From Chromatiaceae bacterium (GTDB lineage: Bacteria; Pseudomonadota; Gammaproteobacteria; Chromatiales; Chromatiaceae), in assembly GCA_024639005.1 (NCBI GenBank), contig JAHEJD010000025.1, positions 1 to 34,237 of the forward strand: a stretch of DNA of 34,237 nucleotides, given 5' to 3'. The notes under the pieces are model-generated. The model saw only the letters and a list, made by a program, of their open reading frames with translations, was not told the origin of the DNA and did no database searches. Position 1 is the stretch's first letter; each line of letters opens with the position of its first letter. Positions 8,346 through 32,946 of this stretch are shown here, piece after piece. A program made the position numbers and the translations under genes.

Positions 8346-8963
8346 TCAGCGCCTGGCCCCAGCCTTCTTTTTGGCCGTCGCCTTCTTCTTTGCGACCTTC
8401 TTCTTTGCGACCTTCTTCTTTGCGACCTTCTTCTTTGCGACCTTCTTCTTTGCGACCTTCTTCTTTGCAACCTTCTTCTTTGCGACCTTCTTCTTTGCGA
8501 CCTTTTTCTTGGCCGCTACCTTTTTCTTCGGCGAAGCCTTCTTCTTGGCGGCCCTCTTCTTGGCGGTCTTCTTCGCGCCGACCTTCTTCTTGGCAGCTAC
8601 CTTTTTCTTGGCGCTGGCCTTCTTCTTCGCCGCCTTCTTGCGCGGCGTCGCAGTCGCCGTCGCCTCCACCTGGCCGCGTAATTGGTTCATTTTTCGACCG
8701 ACGGCGTCGACGATGTCATTGCCGATCTCCTCAATCTCATCGACCAGCGTCTTGAGCATCTTCGCCGCTTGGGTCTCGGTCACCCCCTTGGCGGTATCTG
8801 CAACCTTGTCGGTGACGGCGCCCAGGCCCTCTTTGACCTCGGTCAGCACGACGTCCCCGGCCTTCTCTACCTCAGTAATCACCGAGGAGGCGGTAGCCTT
8901 GAACGATTCGGCAAAGCCACCCTTGCTCGCCGATACCTTTTTTTTGCTTGCTTTCTTCGCCAT
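8346..8963 (-). CDS. Lysine-rich histone H1-like / phasin-like protein with KKKVA repeats
   Basis: The 205-residue protein has two parts. Residues about 15-95 form a helical, phasin-like region (FKATASSVITEVEKAGDVVLTEVKE... and MLKTLVDEIEEIGNDIVD). Residues 105-205 are almost only K, A and V, including eight successive VAKKK units, as in bacterial histone H1-like proteins such as AlgP. Such tails bind DNA or polyphosphate/polyhydroxyalkanoate granule surfaces through charge. A granule-to-nucleoid linker role, as proposed for PhaM-like proteins, is possible but unproven. AAGGGAG precedes ATG 8963, and a good promoter lies at 9000-9027. The repeat is encoded by near-identical 15-bp units and is a likely site of length variation. 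Confidence 0.8.
   Translation of the reverse strand: MAKKASKKKVSASKGGFAESFKATASSVITEVEKAGDVVLTEVKEGLGAVTDKVADTAKGVTETQAAKMLKTLVDEIEEIGNDIVDAVGRKMNQLRGQVEATATATPRKKAAKKKASAKKKVAAKKKVGAKKTAKKRAAKKKASPKKKVAAKKKVAKKKVAKKKVAKKKVAKKKVAKKKVAKKKVAKKKVAKKKATAKKKAGARR
8392..8511. repeat. Eight tandem 15-bp units inside the lysine-rich gene
   Basis: The unit GCGACCTTCTTCTTT (plus strand) is repeated eight times head to tail. Units 1-5 and 7 are identical, unit 6 has one change (GCAACC) and unit 8 has two changes. Each unit encodes one KKKVA pentapeptide on the minus strand. The high identity suggests recent slippage or unequal recombination; being 15 bp, changes in copy number keep the frame. Confidence 0.95.
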
Positions 8964-27593: not shown

Positions 27594-30500
27594 TCAGTGG
27601 AAGTCGCGTGACACGATGTTGAGGCCGTTCAGCAATTCGCTGTGGTCTTCGAGACGTCGGCACAACAGGTGCTGCACGCCCTCGGCACGCTGGATCTCAG
27701 CCACTACGCCGAGCAGCTGTGCACCGAGCAGGATCTTGCGCTGGCGCTCGGCCAGATCCGCCCAGATCAACAGATTCAGTCCCCCGCTCTCATCCTCCAG
27801 GGTGACGAAAATCGCCCGGCCGTTCCCTGGGCGCTGCCGTATCAGGACCAGCCCGGCCGCGCGCACGATGTCACCCGCGGGGTGATCGCCGATCTCCTGC
27901 GCCGACAGAAAACCGCGCTCGCGCAACTGCCGCCTGATCAGGGCGAGTGGATGCTCGCGCAGGCTCAGTCCCAGCTGCGCATAGTCGGCCAGCACCGCCT
28001 GACCTTCATCCGGCGGGCACAGGCGCGGTACGCACTCCCTGAAGCGGTCCAGACCATACAACGGCATGGCATCCTCGACACCGGCGACCTCCCAGGCAGC
28101 GAGATGGCGGTGGCCGGCCAGACCCCGCAAGGTATCAGCGGCGGCCAGCGCCTTGAGATCGGCGCGGTTTAGCGCGGCGCGGCGCGCCAGATCCACAACG
28201 TCCTCGAATCGCCCCTGCCCGCGCAGCCGCGCAATACGTTCGGCTGCCGCCTGTGACAGGCCACGAACCAGCCGCAAACCCAGGCGCAAGGCTGGCATAT
28301 GGCGCCCGGGCGGGGATCCAGGTTCGAGGCCTGCGTTGCGCGCCGCAGTCTCCTCCAGGGTGCAATCCCAGTCACTGTAATTCACATCGACCGGCAATAC
28401 CTCGACGCCATGTTCGCGCGCATCGCGCATCAGCTGCGCCGGGGCATAGAAGCCCATTGGCTGGCTGTTGATCAGGGCCGCACAGAATGCCGCCGGGTGA
28501 TAGCGCTTCAGCCAGGCCGAGACATACACCAGCAGTGCAAAGCTGGCGGCATGGGATTCCGGAAAACCATAGTCGCCGAAGCCGAGGATCTGCCGGTACA
28601 GGCGTTCGGCAAACTCGCGCCGATAGCCGCGTGCCTGCATCCCGGACATCAGTTTCTTTTGATAGAGCTCCAGCCCGCCGCGCCGCTTCCAGGCCGCCAT
28701 CGCCCGGCGCAAATGATCCGCCTCGCCGGGCGTGAAACCGGCCGCGACCATGGCCAGCTTGATCACCTGTTCCTGAAAGATCGGCACCCCCAGGGTGCGC
28801 TCTAGCACCGAGCGCACCGCCTCTGATGGATAGTCCACCGCCTCCCTGCCCTGGCGACGACGCAGGTAGGGATGCACCATATCGCCCTGGATCGGCCCTG
28901 GGCGCACGATCGCCACCTCGATAACCAGGTCGTAGAAGCCCTTTGGTCTCAGCCGCGGCAGCATGGACATCTGCGCACGCGACTCGATCTGGAATACGCC
29001 GACGGTATCTGCACGCTGAATCATCCGGTACACCCCAGGGTCCTCTGCCGGTATGCGCGCAAGCGTCAATGCCTGCCTGGGGCCCTCGAAGCGGTTGATC
29101 AAATCGATCGTCCGGCGTATTGCCGACAACATCCCAAGTGCAAGCACGTCGATCTTGAGCAACCCCAATGCCTCGAGATCGTCCTTTTCCCACTGGATCA
29201 CGCTGCGCTCGGCCATTGCCGCATTTTCGATCGGTACCAGTTCATCCAGGCGGCCGGCTGCGATCACGAAGCCGCCGACGTGCTGTGACAAATGACGTGG
29301 AAAGCCGCGCAGACTGTTGACCAGTATGCGCAGCCGTTGCAGCGTCGGGTTGTCCGGGTCGAAACCCGCCTCGGCCAGATGCGCGGGTTCGATCTCCGCG
29401 TGTCGACGCCAGGCCGAGACCGCTGATACCAGGGCCTCGATCTGTTCCAGCCCCAGACCCAGGGACTTGCCGACATCACGCAGTGCACTGCGTGTGCGAT
29501 AGGTGATCAGGGTCGCCGCCAGCGCGGCGCGATCACGCCCATACTTGGTGTAGATGTACTGGATCACCTCTTCGCGCCGTTGATGTTCGAAGTCGACATC
29601 GATATCCGGCGGCTCATCGCGTTCGCGCGAGATGAAACGCTCGAACAGCAGGTTCATACGCGAGGGATCGACCTCGGTTATCTCCAGGCAATAACACACC
29701 GCCGAGTTGGCCGCCGAACCCCGCCCCTGACACAGGATGCCAAGCGCACGGGCGTGGCGGACGATGTCCCAGACGGTAAGGAAGTAGGCCTCGTAATGCA
29801 GTTCAGCGATCAATGCCAGCTCGTGTTCGATCTGCGCGCACACCCGCGCCGGGCAACCGTCCGGCCAGCGCCGCGCGATACCCTGCTCGGTCAGCCGGCG
29901 CAGCCAGGCGTGCGGTGTGAAACCGGCCGGCGTGACATCGTCGGGGTATTCATAGCGCAGCGCATCGAGCGAGAAACCGCAGCGCCCGGCCACATGCACC
30001 GTCTCCTCGAGCAGTGCAGCAGGATACAGCGTCGCCAGATCGTCCAGCGGGCGCAGATGACGCTCGCCATTGGACAGACGTGCATGTCCCAGCGCGGCCA
30101 CCGGGGTGTTCAGACGGACCGCCGTTAGCACGTCCTGCAGCGCACGCCGTCCACGCACATGCATGTGCACATCACCACTGGCGAGCCGCGGCAGCCGATA
30201 GACCTGCGCCAGACGTTCACTGCATCGCAGACGTTCGGTATCGTAGCCGTCACGCAACAGTTCAACCGCCAGCCAGGCACGCCCGGCGAAGGTCTTCGCC
30301 AGCCAGGCGGCGGCATCTTCCATGTCATCCTGATCTGTTGGCAGCAGGGCCAGGCAGTCCGGCAGGGCGTCTTCGAGATCGGCTCGCTGCAGTCGATAGC
30401 TGCCCTTGTCTGCATGCCGTCGCCCCCGGGTAATCAGGCGACATAACTGCGCATAGCCGGCGCGGTTGGTCACCAGCAGCACCAGATGCGGCCCATCGCA

Positions 30501-30749
30501 CAAGTGGACCTCACTGCCGATGATCAACGCCAGTCCGAGTGCCTTCGCCTCCTGATGCGCACGCACCACGCCCGACAGGGAACATTCATCGGTAACCGCC
30601 AGCGCGCGGTAGCCCAGGGCATGCGCCCGCTCGACCAACTCCTCGGGGTGCGAGGCACCGCGCAGAAAGGTGTAATTCGTCAGGCAATGCAACTCTGCAT
30701 AGGCGTCCGGTACGCGGTGCGGGGATCGAGGGCCGCAGGGGGCCGCCAT
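27594..30749 (-). CDS. dnaE2: Error-prone DNA polymerase III alpha subunit (DnaE2/ImuC)
   Basis: DnaE2 is the catalytic member of the SOS mutasome and copies past DNA lesions. The 1051-residue product has an N-terminal PHP domain (YAELHCLTNYTFLRGASHPEEL), the C-family polymerase core with catalytic Asp residues in DIDVDFEHQRREEV (382-395), CQGRGSAANSAVCY before it, helix-hairpin-helix region, and an OB-fold near the end (AAGLVLIRQRPGNGRAIFVTLEDE). The start ATG 30749 is the closest to the conserved YAELHC; ATG 30794, which overlaps the end of imuB, is possible. It is the last gene of imuA-imuB-dnaE2. Confidence 0.95.
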   Translation of the reverse strand: MAAPCGPRSPHRVPDAYAELHCLTNYTFLRGASHPEELVERAHALGYRALAVTDECSLSGVVRAHQEAKALGLALIIGSEVHLCDGPHLVLLVTNRAGYAQLCRLITRGRRHADKGSYRLQRADLEDALPDCLALLPTDQDDMEDAAAWLAKTFAGRAWLAVELLRDGYDTERLRCSERLAQVYRLPRLASGDVHMHVRGRRALQDVLTAVRLNTPVAALGHARLSNGERHLRPLDDLATLYPAALLEETVHVAGRCGFSLDALRYEYPDDVTPAGFTPHAWLRRLTEQGIARRWPDGCPARVCAQIEHELALIAELHYEAYFLTVWDIVRHARALGILCQGRGSAANSAVCYCLEITEVDPSRMNLLFERFISRERDEPPDIDVDFEHQRREEVIQYIYTKYGRDRAALAATLITYRTRSALRDVGKSLGLGLEQIEALVSAVSAWRRHAEIEPAHLAEAGFDPDNPTLQRLRILVNSLRGFPRHLSQHVGGFVIAAGRLDELVPIENAAMAERSVIQWEKDDLEALGLLKIDVLALGMLSAIRRTIDLINRFEGPRQALTLARIPAEDPGVYRMIQRADTVGVFQIESRAQMSMLPRLRPKGFYDLVIEVAIVRPGPIQGDMVHPYLRRRQGREAVDYPSEAVRSVLERTLGVPIFQEQVIKLAMVAAGFTPGEADHLRRAMAAWKRRGGLELYQKKLMSGMQARGYRREFAERLYRQILGFGDYGFPESHAASFALLVYVSAWLKRYHPAAFCAALINSQPMGFYAPAQLMRDAREHGVEVLPVDVNYSDWDCTLEETAARNAGLEPGSPPGRHMPALRLGLRLVRGLSQAAAERIARLRGQGRFEDVVDLARRAALNRADLKALAAADTLRGLAGHRHLAAWEVAGVEDAMPLYGLDRFRECVPRLCPPDEGQAVLADYAQLGLSLREHPLALIRRQLRERGFLSAQEIGDHPAGDIVRAAGLVLIRQRPGNGRAIFVTLEDESGGLNLLIWADLAERQRKILLGAQLLGVVAEIQRAEGVQHLLCRRLEDHSELLNGLNIVSRDFH

Positions 30750-30777
30750 GCGCCCTACAGCCTGCGCCCCGCGTTCC

Positions 30778-32205
30778 TTACATGAAGAGTCCATGCAGAT
30801 ACCAACCGCCCGCGCGGCGATCCCGGAATACCCATAGGCGTTCACCGGCCGGGCTGTGCGCGACAAAGTAGTCCCGGGTGATATCAAAGCCGTCCCACCA
30901 GCCGGCCTCGATGCGCTCGGGCAGGTTTTCCAGGCGTAATGCGCCGCCATACTGCGGGGCGCCCTGGCATTCCCGCAGGGGTCGTGGCTGGGGCAGCAGC
31001 CAGGGCGGCTGAGAGACCCCTCGGGGCGACAATGGCACCACGGACTCGCCCGGCTGACAAAACTGCCAGGCGCATTCCGGCCGATGGTCGGCCAGACAAC
31101 GCAGCCCGCGTATGCGCTGCTCGCCGAGGCGATTGCTCAGACGCTCGAGCAGGGCCTGGTCGGCCTGTGCCGGACGCTCGAACAGCGTGAGACTGCGCTC
31201 CTCGAAGGCCTGCCAGTCGTCCACCCGCAGATCGATCGCCACCACCGGCGCCGGGAATTGCAGACGCTCGATACGCTCACGCAACACCTCGAGCATGTGG
31301 TCCGGGTCGCGGCTGGGATCGAGCAGCCCCTGGCCGAACCGGGTAGGTGGATGATCACGGTGCCGCAGGGTCCACTGCAGGCGCTGCGCCCCACCACCCT
31401 GGCCGCGCAGAAAACCACACAAGGCCACCATCAGACGGCGCGCCGGGAACATCAGCGCCATGGTCTGCGCGATCTCGCCCAACAGTTCGATGGTCTGGCT
31501 GAAATGCCGCGGCGGCTGCCACTCCGGGCGTGGATCCGGCAGCCGACCGAGCAGGCGATCGAGCAAGTTCAACAACTGCGGCCCAGTGCGGCGCGCCAGT
31601 TCAGCACGCGGCAGCGCCAGCACATCGCCGATGCTGTCCATACCGATATGCCGGATCAGGTTGCGGACATCCCGCGCGCGGGTCAGGCATGCCAGAGGCA
31701 GCGGCGCCACCGCCTCGCACAGGCCATCCTGCATCACTACCTGGCAATCCGGTCGGTTACGGGCCAGCACGCCGGCAGCCATCGGCGTGGGCGCAACAGC
31801 GTGGCGAACACTGTAGCCAAGCTGTTCGAGTTCACGCTGCAAAGGCGCCAGCAGGGTCGGTAGACCGCCGAACAGACGCAGGCTGGCGCCGACCTCGAGC
31901 AGCAGCAATGAAGGTTCGAAGCTGATCCGCGCGCTGAACTGATAGGCCCAGGCCGCCAGCCCGTGCAGGGCCTGCTGTTCGCGTGCGCGATCACGCCGCT
32001 GTACCGACAGCCCGGTGCACAACGCCAGGGCTGCCGGCAACGCGAGTCCCGGCCGAATCCCGTAGGCCTGTGCCGCGCTATTGCAACGGCTGACTTGCTC
32101 ACGCCCACCGAGCTTTTCGATAATCGCCAGTGCACCGGCCTGCTGCCGGCCGCGGGTGATTACCTCGAGCGGCAGGTGCGGAAAATACAGCGCGAGCCAG
32201 AGCAT
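30778..32205 (-). CDS. imuB: ImuB, Y-family polymerase-like mutasome protein
   Basis: ImuB is a non-catalytic relative of DinB that links DnaE2 and ImuA to the beta clamp. The 475-residue product keeps the Y-family outline (MLWLALYFPHLPLEV at the N-terminus, SAAQAYGIRPG, LLLEVGASLRLFGG, then RHIGMDSIGDVLALPRAEL of the helix-hairpin-helix). The acidic catalytic residues are lost: the DMD-C of active enzymes is YFPH here and the second D-E pair is replaced. That loss is the norm in ImuB. ATG 32205 follows the imuA stop after three bases. The end overlaps a possible dnaE2 start. Confidence 0.93.
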   Translation of the reverse strand: MLWLALYFPHLPLEVITRGRQQAGALAIIEKLGGREQVSRCNSAAQAYGIRPGLALPAALALCTGLSVQRRDRAREQQALHGLAAWAYQFSARISFEPSLLLLEVGASLRLFGGLPTLLAPLQRELEQLGYSVRHAVAPTPMAAGVLARNRPDCQVVMQDGLCEAVAPLPLACLTRARDVRNLIRHIGMDSIGDVLALPRAELARRTGPQLLNLLDRLLGRLPDPRPEWQPPRHFSQTIELLGEIAQTMALMFPARRLMVALCGFLRGQGGGAQRLQWTLRHRDHPPTRFGQGLLDPSRDPDHMLEVLRERIERLQFPAPVVAIDLRVDDWQAFEERSLTLFERPAQADQALLERLSNRLGEQRIRGLRCLADHRPECAWQFCQPGESVVPLSPRGVSQPPWLLPQPRPLRECQGAPQYGGALRLENLPERIEAGWWDGFDITRDYFVAHSPAGERLWVFRDRRAGGWYLHGLFM

Positions 32206-32208
32206 GGC

Positions 32209-32856
32209 TCAGGGGACAAGGGCCGGGCCCCCCCGGTCCTCGTCCCTGCCGACGGGCACGATGCATGTCGCCCCGCCCCAGGCACCGCGGCGTTTGAGCA
32301 CCTCGACCGCGAGGCCCGCCGGTGAGGGGCGTACACGCAGACGCAGGGCCGCCGGCGATCCTTGGCGCACGGTGCGCAGCGAGCGAAACAGGATGCCCGG
32401 ACAATCGCCCTGCTCGGCCGCCAGCTGCAGACGGCGCAGCTGGGCCGCCTGTACCTGCTCCGGCCAGACCAGCACTGCACTGCAGGCACCCGACTTGAGC
32501 GCCTGTTCGGCCGCCCACAGACGCTGCCCGGCCGACACGTCGCGGACCAGCAACAGCCGCTCGACCCGGACCCCGCGCGCCACCAGCGCCGGAGCGTAGG
32601 GCACATAGGGTGGCGCGACCCATGCCAGCCAGCGCGGCCCCGCACTCAGACGGGCCAGCAACGGCAGTATCAGTGGCAGACCCTGATGGGCATCACTCAA
32701 CACCTCGGCCAGGGATGCGCGCGGCCAGCCACCACCGAGCACATCATCCAGCACCGTCCAGCCACTGCTCAGCAGCCTGTCTGCCGTCAGCAGGCCGCGT
32801 CGTCCCTGCCACAGGGCACCGTGCCGTTTCAGTTCGTCGAGACTTACAACCTGCAT
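32209..32856 (-). CDS. imuA: ImuA, RecA-like mutasome accessory protein
   Basis: ImuA (SulA-related/RecA-like) is the first gene of the SOS mutasome cassette. The product has 215 residues, starts MQVVSLDELKRHGALWQGRR, and shows SSGWTVLDDVLGGGWPRASLAEVL, equivalent to the region before Walker A of RecA. The Walker A P-loop itself is absent (SDAHQGLPL instead of GxxxxGKT), so ATP use is unlikely. The later part (WVAPPYVPYAPALVARGV, AEQALKSGACSAVLVW) fits the family. GTG 32868 is an upstream alternative start. A GTTC-N7-GTTC repeat lies 46 bases upstream. Confidence 0.92.
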   Translation of the reverse strand: MQVVSLDELKRHGALWQGRRGLLTADRLLSSGWTVLDDVLGGGWPRASLAEVLSDAHQGLPLILPLLARLSAGPRWLAWVAPPYVPYAPALVARGVRVERLLLVRDVSAGQRLWAAEQALKSGACSAVLVWPEQVQAAQLRRLQLAAEQGDCPGILFRSLRTVRQGSPAALRLRVRPSPAGLAVEVLKRRGAWGGATCIVPVGRDEDRGGPALVP

Positions 32857-32901
32857 CGCAGCGCACACCTAGAGGACACGGCGGAATAAGACGGAAATAG
32901 A

Positions 32902-32916
32902 GAACAAATATAGAAC
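32902..32916 (-). promoter_or_regulatory. LexA operator-like direct repeat, GTTC-N7-GTTC
   Basis: The minus strand reads GTTC-TATATTT-GTTC, the exact LexA box known from alphaproteobacteria. It stands 46 bases before the imuA ATG, where an SOS operator is expected, and its spacer contains TATATT, a possible -10. The gammaproteobacterial CTGT-N8-ACAG box is not present in this intergenic stretch. Confidence 0.75.
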
Positions 32917-32946
32917 ATAAAGGCCGCCTTGGCGACCCCGCTGGCG

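Follow-up and report, generated by a model that had tools for sequence, protein, structure and literature searches.

Organization of the imuA-imuB-dnaE2 cassette and its upstream region

The window analyzed here, i.e., the whole stretch of 34,237 nucleotides, carries at its end a mutasome cassette on the minus strand, in which the gene order imuA-imuB-dnaE2 and the gene families were confirmed. The first gene, imuA (32856..32209, minus strand), starts with an ATG at 32856, and its product matched the NCBIfam equivalog NF033429 (ImuA_translesion) with 193.2 bits against a cut-off of 150; an in-frame GTG at 32868 is a possible alternative start. It is followed by imuB (32205..30778, minus strand), whose product matched the Pfam family IMS (37.9 bits, cut-off 23.2) and is 64–81% identical to its same-genus orthologues, whereas it had no NCBIfam match, in contrast to imuA and dnaE2. 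The third gene, dnaE2 (imuC; 30794..27594, minus strand), encodes an error-prone polymerase and matched NF004225 with 1425 bits (cut-off 939); its start at 30794 is an ATG of our choice, which overlaps the end of imuB and from which the frame is open to the stop codon. Elsewhere in the window (8346–8963, minus strand), a protein with a long lysine-rich AKKKVAKKK-type tail was noticed, which by eye resembles histone H1-like proteins.

The original prediction, a perfect GTTC-N7-GTTC direct repeat 46 bases ahead of imuA, was confirmed. The putative LexA operator, GTTCTATATTTGTTC, is an exact match to this pattern at 32916..32902 (minus strand), and its end is 46 positions from the imuA ATG (32856), with 45 bases between. 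A consensus scan, with 9 of 12 matches, revealed a −10-like hexamer TATATT (32912..32907, minus strand) within the operator and a weak −35-like TCGCCA (32935..32930, minus strand). In previous reports, GTTC-N7-GTTC is described as the alphaproteobacterial LexA box (PMC8565304, PMC3323433, PMC9578287) and CTGT-N8-ACAG as the LexA box of most beta- and gammaproteobacteria (PMC3323433), and the imu cassette is stated to be persistently regulated by LexA where it is present (PMC3323433). Judged by its sequence, the cassette studied here would likewise be under LexA regulation.

Frequency of the motif in the window and the genome

A single GTTC-N7-GTTC match in the window is within chance: 0.74 matches are expected, and at least one occurred in 56 of 100 shuffles. 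The whole genome contains 61 exact matches compared with 48 for the reversed pattern; a crude ORF sort placed 51 of the 61 within ORFs and 10 outside, and among these 10 only the imuA copy starts with GTTCT. The extended pattern GTTCT-N6-GTTC exceeded its control in six of nine genus genomes (this one included in the nine); it showed no excess in this genome (10 versus 20 in the control) and no real excess in G007 (29 versus 47) and G008 (36 versus 35), and many of its matches are therefore not operators. The stricter GTTCT-N5-TGTTC was above control in all four genomes tried (G006, 15:3; G008, 16:5; G001, 7:1; G007, 12:5). What takes the repeat beyond chance is that the box is conserved at imuA in relatives and recurs at lexA in exact and at recA in one-mismatch form; these three genes are the regulon targets covered here.

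Two genome matches that come closest to the box at imuA, C97:20407 and C111:8503, were rejected as further SOS sites: one falls within the initial leuS codons (EQIEN) and the other inside a MocR-like gene (gene names assigned by eye). The first leuS codons (EQIEN or EHIEN) create a box-like sequence at L032 3008–3022 in this genome, L243 2263–2277 in G002, and L240 2264–2278 in G005. Moreover, GTTCGAGTGCGGTTCGGTGGTCGTTC was observed at four places in this genome (C14:18877, C90:445, C103:18274, and C115:63432), each time in a noncoding stretch or a questionable short ORF; this dispersed repeat raises the number of motif matches.

Conservation of the box upstream of imuA

ImuB was searched for in 93 genomes, including this one, and found in 43, of which the best 30 loci were read. 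In all eight genus genomes with imuB found (this one included), GTTCTATATT[T/G]GTTC precedes imuA, and no CTGT-N8-ACAG was present in the 1500 bases before imuB. Altogether, a GTTC box was seen at imuA in 11 of the 30 loci read, namely in this genome, in seven congeners, and in the genera G011, G037, and G053; the box is identical or differs by one base in G037 and G053 and takes a looser form in G011. The absence of conservation in relatives, which would have counted against the original prediction, was thus not observed, although eight of the 11 loci come from one genus and hence are not independent. In a further congener, G004, ImuB had no match, yet the same box lies on a contig that apparently holds the imuA start.

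No GTTC operator was found at imuA in the other 19 loci, where the stretch read ahead of imuB was as long as 1500 bases (882 in L076). A canonical lexA, recognized by a simple motif, lies just upstream in 10 of these 19 loci, and CTGT-N8-ACAG is present in seven; for the 11 GTTC-type loci, a canonical lexA was listed for none. All 19 go with a LexA of the canonical clade; this assignment comes from the tree, except in G050 and G057, where it is based on the score alone. In L084 and L088, the GTTC matches close to the canonical lexA fall within its coding sequence and were not counted as operators. Furthermore, among 49 loci from the species collection, the box was found in the seven closest (six congener loci and G053) and in none of the 42 others in the stretch read.

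Boxes upstream of recA and lexA in the genus

The original prediction had also pointed to recA and lexA as genes that might carry GTTC-N7-GTTC, and in the genus lexA was found to carry it exactly and recA with one mismatch. Upstream of recA, GTTCTCTTTTTGTTT, which is one mismatch from the box, is identical in all eight genomes read (this one included; the cut recA of G005 was left out). The lexA start could be read in seven congeners, and at least one exact box precedes it in all seven. In five of them, the boxes form an exact facing pair 33–34 bp apart; the partner box in G001 has one mismatch, and the contig of G007 begins just upstream of lexA. The upstream lexA box directly abuts a TATAAT hexamer in G001, G003, G006, and G008. 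Control of the SOS genes by CTGT-N8-ACAG, which had been considered as a contrary outcome, found no support in the stretches read before imuA, lexA, and recA: this motif was absent from the 300 bases before recA in the eight genus genomes and from the 250 bases before lexA (or up to the contig end) in the seven congeners. Taken from these sequences, LexA of the genus would control its own gene and recA through the same box.

A second region of facing GTTC boxes was noticed at L242 2528–2579 (G003), L241 2034–2085 (G004), L101 3766–3817 (G005), and L271 1501–1551 (G008). It is located about 4–10 kb from lexA in G003, G005, and G008 and on a different contig in G004. In L241, L242, and L101, it precedes a short ORF (about 66 residues) that matched no Pfam family and lies beside a polysaccharide deacetylase-like gene (named by eye); this ORF is a candidate for an SOS-controlled small protein.

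A gammaproteobacterial LexA clade associated with GTTC boxes

A set of 102 LexA proteins, a chosen part of the hits that combines relatives with an even draw of the phylum, was used for phylogenetic analysis. Left out of the counts were L101 (the cut lexA of G005), L111 (100 bases fetched, no gene), and six rows that belong to none of the clades described below (L207, L211, L220, L230, L175, and L179). The clades were defined by the tree and the recognition helix at a point when the boxes were already known, and the bootstrap of the tree was not fully settled. The tree separated a gamma-GTTC clade of 44 rows (support 95/85), within which the lexA of the genus falls and which spans ten family codes, a canonical gamma clade of 36 rows (100/96), and an alpha clade of 16 rows (100/99). 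The alpha rows belong to a different class within the phylum, which we take to be Alphaproteobacteria.

The results showed that GTTC-N7-GTTC lies within 160 bp upstream of lexA in 36 of the 44 members of the gamma-GTTC clade, in none of the 36 canonical members, and in 15 of the 16 alpha members, the last drawn from the 30 best hits to the G006 LexA and therefore not a fair draw of alphas. CTGT-N8-ACAG within 250 bp showed the reverse distribution (0/44, 24/36, and 0/16, respectively). In 200 shuffles of the 44 upstream regions, a mean of 0.15 and a maximum of 2 carried the box, versus the 36 observed. The exact box within 160 bp is missing in eight of the 44, including G037 and G053: the G037 lexA has one-mismatch sites only, though the box stands at its imuA, and the G053 lexA has no site within one mismatch, though its imuA also has the box. 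LexA proteins of both gamma groups occur together in several genomes, e.g., G010, G019, G028, G043, G048, G052, G085, and G090.

Several further rows deserve mention. G015 (L107/L237) and G032 (L208/L209) each possess two different gamma-GTTC LexAs, one in each of the clade's two sub-clades, and all four have GTTC boxes. Of the six rows that were placed in none of the three clades, L230 carries a GTTC box. L175 and L179 are from the same other class as the alpha rows and group elsewhere (the alpha group thus holds 16 of 18), with a different helix and no GTTC box. L207, L211, and L220 (from G031, G040, and G051) form a very divergent LexA-like group with the helix SVQ[TS]AR.HL; they adjoin a distant imuB-like gene and have neither GTTC-N7-GTTC nor CTGT-N8-ACAG upstream.

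Residues 44 and 45 of the recognition helix contact bases in E. coli LexA. Alignment of the helix, as the original prediction had envisaged, revealed that LexA of the genus type carries His44-[Lys/Arg]45 as alpha LexA does, unlike canonical LexA. Position 44 (E. coli numbering) is His in 44/44 gamma-GTTC and 16/16 alpha proteins, whereas it is Glu in 27 and His in none of the 36 canonical proteins; position 45 is Lys or Arg in 42/44 gamma-GTTC proteins, Arg in 16/16 alpha proteins, and Glu or Asp in 30/36 canonical ones. The neighboring positions 41, 42, and 46 are mostly Gly, Ser, and Gln/Tyr/His in the gamma-GTTC clade versus Ser, Gly, and Leu in the alpha clade. The Ala-Gly cleavage site and the Ser/Lys catalytic pair are kept in 43 of the 44 clade rows at each of the four positions. 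The LexA of congener G006 matched TIGR00498 with 175 bits (cut-off 110.95), and both PF01726 and PF00717 were above their cut-offs.

The combination of box and helix was also seen in an isolate, Methylobacter sp. YRD-M1 (Methylococcales), whose plasmid-borne LexA is 60.6% identical to the G006 LexA and has the helix SRGSLHKH; its lexA has the box GTTCTCTTTTTGTTC at −77 and adjoins umuD and a Y-family polymerase gene. The LexA of Methylophaga thalassica is related and its helix is similar, but the 250 bp read at its gene contain no site within one mismatch of the box. Both the box and the helix SKSGIHR were seen in the alpha controls, the lexA genes of Sinorhizobium meliloti and Cereibacter azotoformans.

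A probable gap at lexA in this assembly

No lexA was found in the assembly of this genome with PF01726, PF00717, TIGR00498, and a congener LexA as queries. Two candidates were rejected: a FeoC-like protein encoded next to a FeoB-like ORF (named by eye), which matched PF01726 below the cut-off, and a short S24 protein, in which no LexA DNA-binding domain was matched. A DNA search with the congener lexA region returned nothing (40 of 127 candidates scored) and is uninformative alone. The neighbors of lexA in congeners, i.e., the genes for a helicase, hspQ, and cmoB, are absent here as well, and the same protein query finds them in G003 and G006. The assembly is a MAG in 155 contigs and is 95.8% complete, and for this reason a gap in the assembly is a likelier cause of the missing lexA than loss of the gene. 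Since the lexA region is absent from the assembly, the repressor of this strain has to be deduced from congeners, from which we infer that its unassembled lexA is of the gamma-GTTC type.

True loss of lexA in this species, with the imu operon constitutive or otherwise regulated and the box a relic, is an unlikely alternative. It would account for lexA, the helicase gene, hspQ, and cmoB all missing here while present in G003 and G006. However, the disappearance of a block of several unrelated genes fits a gap in such a fragmented MAG, and both sites, at imuA and at recA, are preserved in this genome.

Proposed regulation of the cassette

We propose that a resident gammaproteobacterial LexA with alpha-type specificity very probably represses the imu cassette, in preference to the view that its operator was imported. 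Our confidence in this reading is high but not higher because G037 and G053 have the box at imuA and no exact box at their own lexA. The site at 32916..32902 would then be the SOS operator of imuA-imuB-dnaE2, read by a resident LexA that belongs to a separate gammaproteobacterial lineage. In the undamaged cell, LexA would occupy both GTTC half-sites, which are spaced by one helical turn (11 bp), and cover the −10 region; upon DNA damage, RecA filaments would trigger the self-cleavage of LexA, and the mutasome operon would be expressed. Binding, repression, and induction at the GTTC operator are thus predicted from sequence features, and the same repressor may control lexA itself and recA.

The original prediction offered two explanations, a LexA with alphaproteobacterial specificity encoded by this genome or an operator that came along with the cassette. 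The former is favored by the exact box at lexA in 7/7 congeners and the one-mismatch box at recA in 8/8 genomes, and the latter is contradicted by these sites. Even the former holds in a modified form: the congeners encode a LexA that very probably has this specificity, but it falls in a separate gamma clade, and the genome's own assembly is without lexA.

Recent acquisition of lexA from an alphaproteobacterium, which brought the motif along, would explain the shared motif and the shared His44-Arg/Lys45 pair, and the alpha and gamma-GTTC proteins can be joined on a single side of the tree (p-AU 0.59). It is nevertheless quite improbable. The alpha rows form a group of their own (100/99) and the gamma-GTTC rows another (95/85), which gives no support to a recent transfer from the alphas sampled; in addition, the gamma-GTTC clade covers ten family codes, and helix positions 41, 42, and 46 differ between the two groups. 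As joining the gamma-GTTC clade with the canonical clade gave a p-AU of 0.50, compared with 0.59 for joining it with alpha, a sister relation between gamma-GTTC and alpha LexA is neither shown nor rejected.

Import of the operator with the cassette by horizontal transfer, into a host with no matching LexA, is very improbable as well. The lack of lexA in this assembly is in line with it, but the site recurs at congener lexA and, one mismatch off, at recA here and in seven congeners; the cassette is established in the genus (ImuB identities of 64–81%), and elsewhere it often has CTGT operators or lies next to a canonical lexA. A chance match without function, which the expectation of 0.74 in the window and the small genome-wide excess (61 versus 48) would allow, is scarcely credible given that the site is identical or one base different at the same place in eight genus genomes, G037, and G053, and looser in G011.

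Regarding the origin of the repression by a resident gamma LexA proposed above, a tentative history, to which we give somewhat less than even weight, is that an old second LexA lineage of gammaproteobacteria, perhaps sister to alpha LexA, kept a GTTC-reading helix with His44-[Lys/Arg]45. Many species would then possess two SOS regulons with two operator codes, and loss of the canonical LexA would have led to rewiring of the cassette to GTTC by operator replacement. Previous reports restate a model in which, once the primary LexA is lost, control of the network passes to a diverged LexA (PMC8565304), and state that the recognition of direct repeats by LexA seems to have evolved several times (PMC7739468).

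The predicted picture is that one bacterial class uses two LexA alphabets, side by side in several genomes, with the operator difference tied to two residues of the recognition helix. Scans limited to CTGT-N8-ACAG would miss or misassign the SOS regulons of such gammaproteobacteria, which include Chromatiales-like MAGs and a Methylobacter isolate. The genomes may also form a natural gradation between carrying two LexAs and carrying one, along which operator replacement at a mutagenesis cassette could be traced. In the literature searched by title and abstract start, no description of a gammaproteobacterial LexA with a GTTC-N7-GTTC box was found; key older papers were outside this scope, and an earlier published description may exist.

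Comparison with known LexA systems

The system predicted here resembles the alphaproteobacterial LexA regulon in its direct-repeat operator and in the residue pair at positions 44 and 45, which is His44-Arg45 in the alpha helix. It differs in that the protein belongs to a different clade and does not lie within the alpha group, the 16 alpha rows standing alone (100/99). The boxes differ as well: 50 of 53 gamma-GTTC boxes read GTTCT, compared with eight of 16 alpha boxes, and boxes in both orientations are found at 16/44 gamma-GTTC lexA genes and at 0/16 alpha ones. With the canonical LexA of gamma- and betaproteobacteria, it shares the class, the two LexA domains, the self-cleavage residues, and the kind of target genes, whereas the operator, residues 44–45, and the clade (the canonical one being separate with 100/96) are different.

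The second LexA (LexA2) of Pseudomonas and Xanthomonas has its own operator motif and goes with imuA-imuB-dnaE2. The present case is similar to LexA2 in that a second gammaproteobacterial LexA is linked with this cassette. On the other hand, the LexA2 helix is SRSVARKH and that found here is S[RK]GS.HK, and lexA stands at the head of the cassette in the Pseudomonas loci read, whereas the lexA of the genus is located elsewhere in congeners. The LexA box of Acidobacterium capsulatum is said, by the title of a 2006 paper of Mazon, to be explained by lateral acquisition of an alphaproteobacterial lexA. Going by that title, both cases lie outside the alphaproteobacteria and have an alpha-type box, but the LexA described here is not within the alpha group.
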